The notes under the pieces were generated by a model. It saw nothing but the letters and a program-made list of their open reading frames with translations, ran no database searches and had not been told where the DNA came from. Position numbers and translations under genes: made by a program. From Acidimicrobiia bacterium (GTDB taxonomy: Bacteria > Actinomycetota > Acidimicrobiia > IMCC26256 > JAGPDB01): a stretch of 32,042 bases of DNA. The DNA is taken from assembly GCA_018057765.1 (NCBI GenBank), contig JAGPDB010000022.1, positions 1-32,042 of the forward strand, written 5' to 3'. Shown in pieces: positions 6,840-7,026 of this stretch. The first letter of the stretch is position 1. Each line of letters starts with the position of its first letter.

Positions 6840-6868
6840 TTGTTACCTACTTAAAGAGCTGCTAGAGT
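6840..6868 (+). promoter_or_regulatory. Promoter of the leucine leader and leuA
   Basis: A -35 box TTGTTA (6840-6845), a 17-base spacer and a -10 box TAGAGT (6863-6868) are followed after 7 bases by the ATG of a leucine-rich leader peptide. Transcription would then begin at the leader's own start codon. The bases GAGTGG just before the ATG could instead serve as a Shine-Dalgarno if transcription starts further upstream. Confidence 0.55.
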
Positions 6869-6875
6869 GGTATTA

Positions 6876-6908
6876 ATGAGCCAAAACAAACTTCTACTCC
6901 TTATTTAG
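6876..6908 (+). CDS. leuL: Leucine leader peptide upstream of leuA
   Basis: Ten-codon reading frame encoding [10 protein letters not shown] followed by TAG. Four Leu codons stand in a row (CTT CTA CTC CTT) and an Ile codon follows. A short Leu-rich peptide about 120 bases before leuA, followed at once by RNA hairpins, is the signature of ribosome-mediated attenuation, in which ribosomes slowing at Leu codons report shortage of charged tRNA-Leu. The last base of the TAG is the first base of the first hairpin. The ATG is placed 7 bases after a TAGAGT box, so the transcript may be leaderless. Conservation in relatives cannot be tested here, but the match of codon content to the downstream pathway makes chance unlikely. 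Confidence 0.75.
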
Positions 6909-6944
6909 GCGAAAGTCTTACAGCATTAAGCTATTACTTTCGCC
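6908..6944 (+). promoter_or_regulatory. First hairpin of the leu leader
   Basis: GGCGAAAGT (6908-6916) pairs perfectly with ACTTTCGCC (6936-6944). Inside the loop CTTA (6917-6920) can pair with TAAG (6927-6930). The 5' arm begins in the leader stop codon, so a ribosome on the Leu codons or at the stop would cover it. It is the likely pause or sensor hairpin. Confidence 0.6.
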
Positions 6945-6957
6945 CTTGCATGGCTCC

Positions 6958-6991
6958 TCTCCTGAAATAAAGATCAGGAGATATTTCTTTC
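6958..6991 (+). terminator. Terminator-like hairpin of the leu attenuator
   Basis: TCTCCTGA (6958-6965) and TCAGGAGA (6974-6981) form a perfect 8-bp stem with an 8-base loop, followed by the T-rich run TATTTCTTTC. It lies between the leader peptide and leuA, where an attenuating terminator is expected. A competing 6-bp pairing, GAAATA (6964-6969) with TATTTC (6982-6987), would break it. I could not find a convincing antiterminator that joins the first hairpin to this one. Confidence 0.55.
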
Positions 6992-7026
6992 TAGACTATA
7001 TTCAATTATTATTCCAAGGATTCAAA

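Follow-up and report, generated by a model that had tools for sequence, protein, structure and literature searches.

The region in front of leuA in the DNA stretch analyzed here (32,042 nucleotides, referred to as the window) raises the question of how a short, leucine-rich reading frame followed by two hairpins could control the gene downstream of it, and how a hairpin beginning in the leader's stop codon could signal to a terminator for which no antiterminator is apparent.

Organization of the leuA upstream region

The elements identified upstream of leuA are compiled in Table 1. An earlier sequence-only reading of this DNA had described a -35/-10 pair, a leucine leader, and hairpins of nine and eight base pairs, all of which were reproduced exactly on direct reading. 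The two promoter hexamers are separated by a spacer of 17 nt, and the seven nucleotides GGTATTA lead from the -10 hexamer to the ATG at position 6876. The first hairpin (P1) consists of nine perfect pairs (arms 6908-6916 and 6936-6944), and takes the G of the stop codon UAG as its first base, while the second hairpin (T) consists of eight (arms 6958-6965 and 6974-6981).

Table 1. Features of the putative leuA attenuator region in the window
Feature	Position	Strand	Basis
-35 hexamer TTGTTA	6840-6845	+	Read directly
-10 hexamer TAGAGT	6863-6868	+	Read directly; 7 nt before the leader ATG
Predicted leader ORF, probably leaderless	6876-6908	+	Read directly; TAG stop at 6906-6908
Regulatory Leu codons CTT CTA CTC CTT (LLLL)	6891-6902	+	Read directly
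P1 hairpin, candidate ribosome-sensing element	6908-6944	+	Read directly; folding; compensatory changes
Intrinsic terminator hairpin T	6958-6981	+	Terminator scan; arm swap test
T-rich terminator tail TATTTCTT	6982-6989	+	Read directly; terminator scan
leuA Shine-Dalgarno sequence AAGGA	7016-7020	+	Read directly; 5-base SD match at the leuA start
leuA, 2-isopropylmalate synthase (fungal/actinobacterial type), putative regulated gene	7027-8712	+	NCBIfam TIGR00970, NF002991

Folding of the RNA between positions 6876 and 7026, proposed as a check in the sequence-only reading, yielded -33.1 kcal/mol (z -2.98 compared to shuffled sequences), and T was the sole terminator-like site returned by the terminator scan (0.6 expected). 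Both NCBIfam matches of the leuA product scored above their curated cut-offs. The window promoter was missed by a simple scan demanding 9 of 12 consensus positions and is weak taken alone; support for it therefore rests on the relatives described below. Elsewhere in the window, a small minus-strand ORF (MAKRGGFKSGFSPDPIERKEL...) was noticed at positions 6534-6754, between leuD and the leuA leader, as well as a tRNA gene (Rfam RF00005) at positions 19225-19297 on the plus strand.

Distribution of the element and matching of leader codons to genes

The same upstream arrangement was found at leuA of relatives and in public genomes. A covariance model built from 29 leuA leaders, the window among them, detected the element in 214 of the 395 genomes of the class (apparently Acidimicrobiia), comprising 172 of 268 good-quality genomes and 132 of 184 genera. 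Since this training set contained the window, a further model (R3) was prepared from 27 relatives with the window's genus left out. It matched the window at positions 6891-6989 (E 3.3e-6) and the same-genus locus L003 (E 4.8e-8), both among 41 kb and with E-values that are rough. No leader match above the gathering threshold of Rfam 15 was obtained for the window or 33 related loci.

Within the 27-sequence alignment of relatives, compensatory changes were recorded for seven of the nine P1 pairs; the P1 covariation score was reached by none of 500 shuffles, and slid controls remained far lower, although covariation values, like the z values reported below, are inflated by relatedness. Counting back from the stop, codons -2, -3, and -4 encoded leucine in 100%, 100%, and 98% of the relatives' leuA leaders, respectively, the leucine content of this set being partly built into the model and into the leader parser, which favoured clean stems. 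Nearly every leader had its P1 start 1-4 nt past the first stop-codon base. Likewise, a covarying T stem with a T-rich tail recurred across the class. The comparison of leuA upstream regions, which the sequence-only reading had proposed, returned conserved Leu codons and a P1 stem with compensatory pairs. As separate observations, UAG served as leader stop in 121 of 143 leuA leaders, which seems high for GC-rich genomes, and a CATA motif was located at the P1 centre in 46 of 138 leuA leaders (3 expected; for example, L110, L163, and L174).

The genes following the element belong to leucine and branched-chain amino acid metabolism. A total of 143 unique leuA-type elements was gathered, mostly via the RNA model alone, and all 142 testable ones were located upstream of leuA, 90 of them in front of the window's leuA type and 52 in front of the second bacterial type, whose identity to the former amounts to only about 27%. 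Both of these distantly related types were seen behind the same leader, for example at L012 and L213, which both belong to genome G046, a genome with two copies of the element. When the codon run was left out of the model (R2) and 40 genomes were searched, 34 matches with E-values up to 0.0013 were obtained, 33 of which preceded leuA, ilvB, leuB, or cimA; the R2 match L297, which belongs to the genome of the window, appears to be spurious and was dismissed. Outside the class, the element was found before leuS, leuA, and ilvB.

Leader codons varied with the downstream gene. Leucine codons preceded the stop in leuA and leuS leaders, mixed codons (LVVV, ILVV, VLLVVLL) in ilvB leaders, isoleucine and valine codons (VIII, VIIV, IIVVI) in leuB leaders, and IIII or III in leaders of cimA, which serves isoleucine only. 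Attenuators of the latter kind, in front of the citramalate synthase gene of the isoleucine pathway, were noted at L292 and L341, and those with Ile/Val codons before leuB at L302, L303, L304, L334, L335, L340, and L342. The Ile/Val leaders suggest which pathway the shared enzyme LeuB answers to, namely, the supply of isoleucine and valine. The window's own genome harbors a second copy before ilvB (L258, contig C23), with the leader MTNTIYTHNSVLLVVLLT preceding the stop. This leader ends in VLLVVLLT, P1 follows the stop, and T abuts P1 with a gap of 0. As read by eye, the upstream regions of ilvE-leuB and leuC in the window contain no such leader.

This matching of codons to pathways is regarded as the strongest evidence that the leader would sense aminoacyl-tRNA supply, and the designation as an aminoacyl-tRNA-responsive attenuator is made with high confidence. 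Three lines of evidence back the leucine attenuator proposed in the sequence-only reading: the element is conserved across the class, it is associated exclusively with genes for leucine and the branched-chain amino acids, and its leader codons match the gene downstream. Furthermore, rare codons seem to be chosen in the leaders: the last Leu codon (window positions 6900-6902) is CTT in 69% of the leuA leaders, a codon accounting for 7.7% of Leu codons in the leuA coding sequence, and GTA represents 30 of the 52 Val codons in the ilvB, leuB, and cimA leaders.

Concerning translation of the leader, 136 of the 139 leaders had a TANNNT box positioned 3-12 nt ahead of an in-frame start codon, 129 of them at a distance of 6-10 nt, compared to 74 of 139 with flat spacing for shuffled upstream sequence. 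The best -35 match in relatives was most often located 17 nt upstream of the -10 box, and only 7 of 136 relatives had an SD-like sequence ahead of the leader start. The spacing between -10 box and ATG, together with the few SD sites, indicates that transcription would start at or within a few nucleotides of the start codon; the leader is thus likely leaderless, an assignment held with moderate confidence. The view of the sequence-only reading that a leaderless leader peptide is unusual has to be corrected. Leaderless leader peptides have been mapped in Streptomyces lividans, among them the Leu-rich LeuL1 before leuA and LeuL2 before leuS, which are leaderless by RNA-seq (PMC8079986), and a leaderless ilvB leader was mapped in Corynebacterium diphtheriae (PMC5784534); leaderlessness is therefore expected for the phylum.

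Ribosome position, pairing tests, and the proposed signal to the terminator

To evaluate pairing between segments, duplex energies of cognate partners were compared to those of swapped partners across 138-139 leuA leaders, a test of limited power if neither partner varies much. The arms of P1 (z -39) and of T (z -29; 139 leaders) clearly preferred their cognate partners, as they did in 27 ilvB, leuB, and cimA leaders (z -12 and -13, respectively). Among combinations of the leader, the stop region, and the P1 arms or loop with the T arms, none went beyond z -3.5 in the leuA set, the value achieved for the 5' arms of P1 and T. For the P1 loop and the T 5' arm, z -3.8 was reached in the small ilvB/leuB/cimA set, and no pairing of this loop with the T arms was obtained in leuA leaders. 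Further candidates were discarded, namely, the Leu run with the T 3' arm (z -1.3), the P1 loop with the T 3' arm (z +0.7 and +1.4), and the leader or P1 arms with the leuA ribosome-binding site or the stretch between T and leuA. Among the last-named combinations, a value of z -4.5 was reached solely by the N-terminal part of the leader against this middle stretch. A frameshift past the stop, by which the ribosome would cover T, was also dropped, all three frames being mostly open through T and thus non-discriminating.

Folding was then considered with the ribosome footprint masked, the ribosome being either stalled at the first Leu codon or positioned on the stop codon. The probability of P1 was 1.00 in the stalled state and 0.01 at the stop, while that of T was 0.97 and 0.94; for the window alone, the values were 1.0 and 0.0 for P1 and 0.99 in both states for T. 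In the modelled states, P1 thus appears to read the position of the ribosome, and nothing was seen that sequesters T. The predicted short ORF with pathway codons and the intrinsic terminator between ORF and gene are both features expected of an attenuator, and RNA structure depending on ribosome position (P1) was found in silico only; an antiterminator mutually exclusive with the terminator, as in classical trp/leu-type attenuators, was not detected.

The modelled stability of T in every ribosome state would also agree with a constitutive terminator and P1, the Leu run having no regulatory role. This explanation is considered highly improbable, since codon identity tracks the gene across leuA, leuS, ilvB, leuB, and cimA, and the spacing between the codons, the stop, and P1 varies little.

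Classical attenuation with an overlooked antiterminator, formed either by UUUAGG (6904-6909) with CCUGAA (6961-6966) or by the 5' arms of P1 and T, is regarded as unlikely. The former pairing, joining the last codon and stop of the leader to the T 5' arm, initially drew attention through a seemingly compensatory change between the window and relatives, those with YGUAGG often having CCUGYG, and the latter through the z value of -3.5 mentioned above; moreover, an overlap of only three bases between antiterminator and terminator is described for the Corynebacterium ilvB leader (PMC11857589). However, the stop region against the T 5' arm gave z -0.1 over 139 leaders, and UUUAGG:CCUGAA was rejected on this result, the same two G's being taken by P1 in a far stronger stem. 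No cross-hairpin pair was present among the leading covariations, and in the stalled state the T 5' arm was more than half sequestered, ahead of the emergence of its 3' arm, in just 2 of 138 leaders. The statement of the sequence-only reading that no classical antiterminator is evident holds, within the power of these tests, over the 138-139 leuA leaders and the 27 ilvB, leuB, and cimA leaders.

A comparably small probability is assigned to P1 being an RNA polymerase pause hairpin that synchronizes ribosome and polymerase, the ribosome state being read otherwise. A YGYG motif follows P1 by 11 nt in 38 of 143 leaders, a spacing resembling that of hairpin-stabilized pauses, but the motif is missing near P1 in 56 of 143, the window among them, and coincides with the inner stem of T. 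The narrower motif TGYG was set aside as being present in only part of the leader set. Moreover, pausing by itself cannot choose between termination and read-through.

Less probable still is translational control resembling the actinobacterial LEU element, in which the Leu run pairs with the SD region of leuA and a stalled ribosome frees the latter. Such a base stem is reported for Actinomycetes leaders (PMC1262725), and UCCUU (6898-6902) of the window can pair with AAGGA (7016-7020), but CU-rich runs in general pair with SD sequences. Across the leuA leaders, the pairing that characterizes the LEU element was not found, the cognate Leu run and ribosome-binding region performing no better than swapped ones (z +2.4), and a strong conserved terminator lies between the two.

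The region is thus most probably a ribosome-mediated, leucine-responsive transcription attenuator of leuA, gated by P1 and with no classical antiterminator pairing for T. As the conserved promoter spacing suggests, transcription probably begins at the leader ATG, and the ribosome would load at the 5' end in an SD-independent manner. When leucine is plentiful, the ribosome would reach the stop codon and its footprint would lie over the P1 5' arm, blocking P1, as seen in the masked folding only; when leucine is scarce, the ribosome would stall on the Leu codons and P1, begun in the stop codon, could form. Since T folds independently of both ribosome states, the signal from P1 to T would be transmitted by means other than classical antiterminator pairing. 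Intact P1 would favour read-through, the sign needed for induction on starvation and thus suggested by physiology.

Concerning the link between both hairpins, the gap between P1 and T amounts to 0-4 nt in 117 of 138 leuA leaders and ranges from -2 to 7 in the ilvB/leuB/cimA set, the window (13 nt) and L003 (8 nt) being outliers. An intact P1 beside the base of T may hinder closure of T in the RNA exit channel and thereby permit read-through; this steric antitermination is the preferred guess, held with low confidence. The three-base overlap in the Corynebacterium ilvBNC leader may provide a partial precedent by analogy. Because of its 13-nt gap, the window leader fits such a link poorly, and its coupling between P1 and T may be weaker or different. 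Effects of mutations in the Streptomyces coelicolor leuA leader, which were inconsistent with classical attenuation (PMC1262725), count against the attenuator reading preferred here. Tentatively, and with rather more doubt than confidence, the leaders could constitute a modular class of branched-chain attenuators lacking an antiterminator, in which plentiful charged tRNA would let the ribosome open the stop-codon hairpin, while an intact hairpin would directly block the abutting terminator. If so, omission of leader translation would lead to high rather than low expression.

Novelty and comparison with known systems

As far as the literature and Rfam were searched, three aspects are new: a form that combines an intrinsic terminator with a P1 begun in the stop codon, the occurrence of this form across the class, and its presence ahead of leuB and cimA, where the codons match the gene. 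No paper on leaders of this kind in Acidimicrobiia was found in the open-licence literature, while leaderless Leu leaders as such are already known in Actinobacteria. For a large class whose members are mostly uncultured, the findings offer a testable regulatory code of the branched-chain genes: the amino acid sensed would be legible from a few codons before the stop. They would also extend leaderless leader peptides to this class, for which no report of them was found. If P1 acts on T without an antiterminator, the design of attenuation would be simpler than that of the textbook.

In enterobacterial leu operons, a leader peptide with Leu codons and an intrinsic terminator lie upstream of leuA, as in the window; unlike the window element, the enterobacterial leader is SD-led, and its antiterminator and terminator are mutually exclusive. 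The polycysteine attenuators of mycobacteria (Canestrari et al. 2020, cited in PMC13236596) likewise have a leaderless sORF containing a run of the amino acid that regulates, but are directed at cysteine instead of branched-chain amino acids and are described in PMC13236596 as acting by translation attenuation.

The LEU element upstream of actinobacterial leuA, composed of a Leu-rich leader, a pseudoknot, and a base stem between Leu run and SD sequence (Seliverstov et al. 2005, PMC1262725), likewise features a short Leu-run leader followed by structured RNA. It lacks a typical intrinsic terminator (PMC8079986), whereas in the window element P1 extends from the stop codon, with an intrinsic terminator behind it. 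Among the Actinomycetes loci inspected (L046-L109), most showed an LLL leader, a -10-like box a few nucleotides before the start, and a LEU-type hairpin. In S. lividans, LeuL2 resembles the window element in that a hairpin and a U stretch follow the leader, while LeuL1 differs in having no terminator; the geometry of P1 beginning in the stop codon is absent from the description of both (PMC8079986).

The Corynebacterium ilvBNC attenuator (ilvB-II motif), whose leader has been discussed as a leaderless mRNA (PMC11857589), differs in that its uORF spans most of P1, whereas the ORF of the window ends where P1 begins, and in that its proposed antiterminator competes with the terminator, none having been found for the window element. 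What both systems have in common are branched-chain codons, with CUU and GUA exerting control in Corynebacterium, followed by P1 and a terminator (PMC11857589, PMC10272879).
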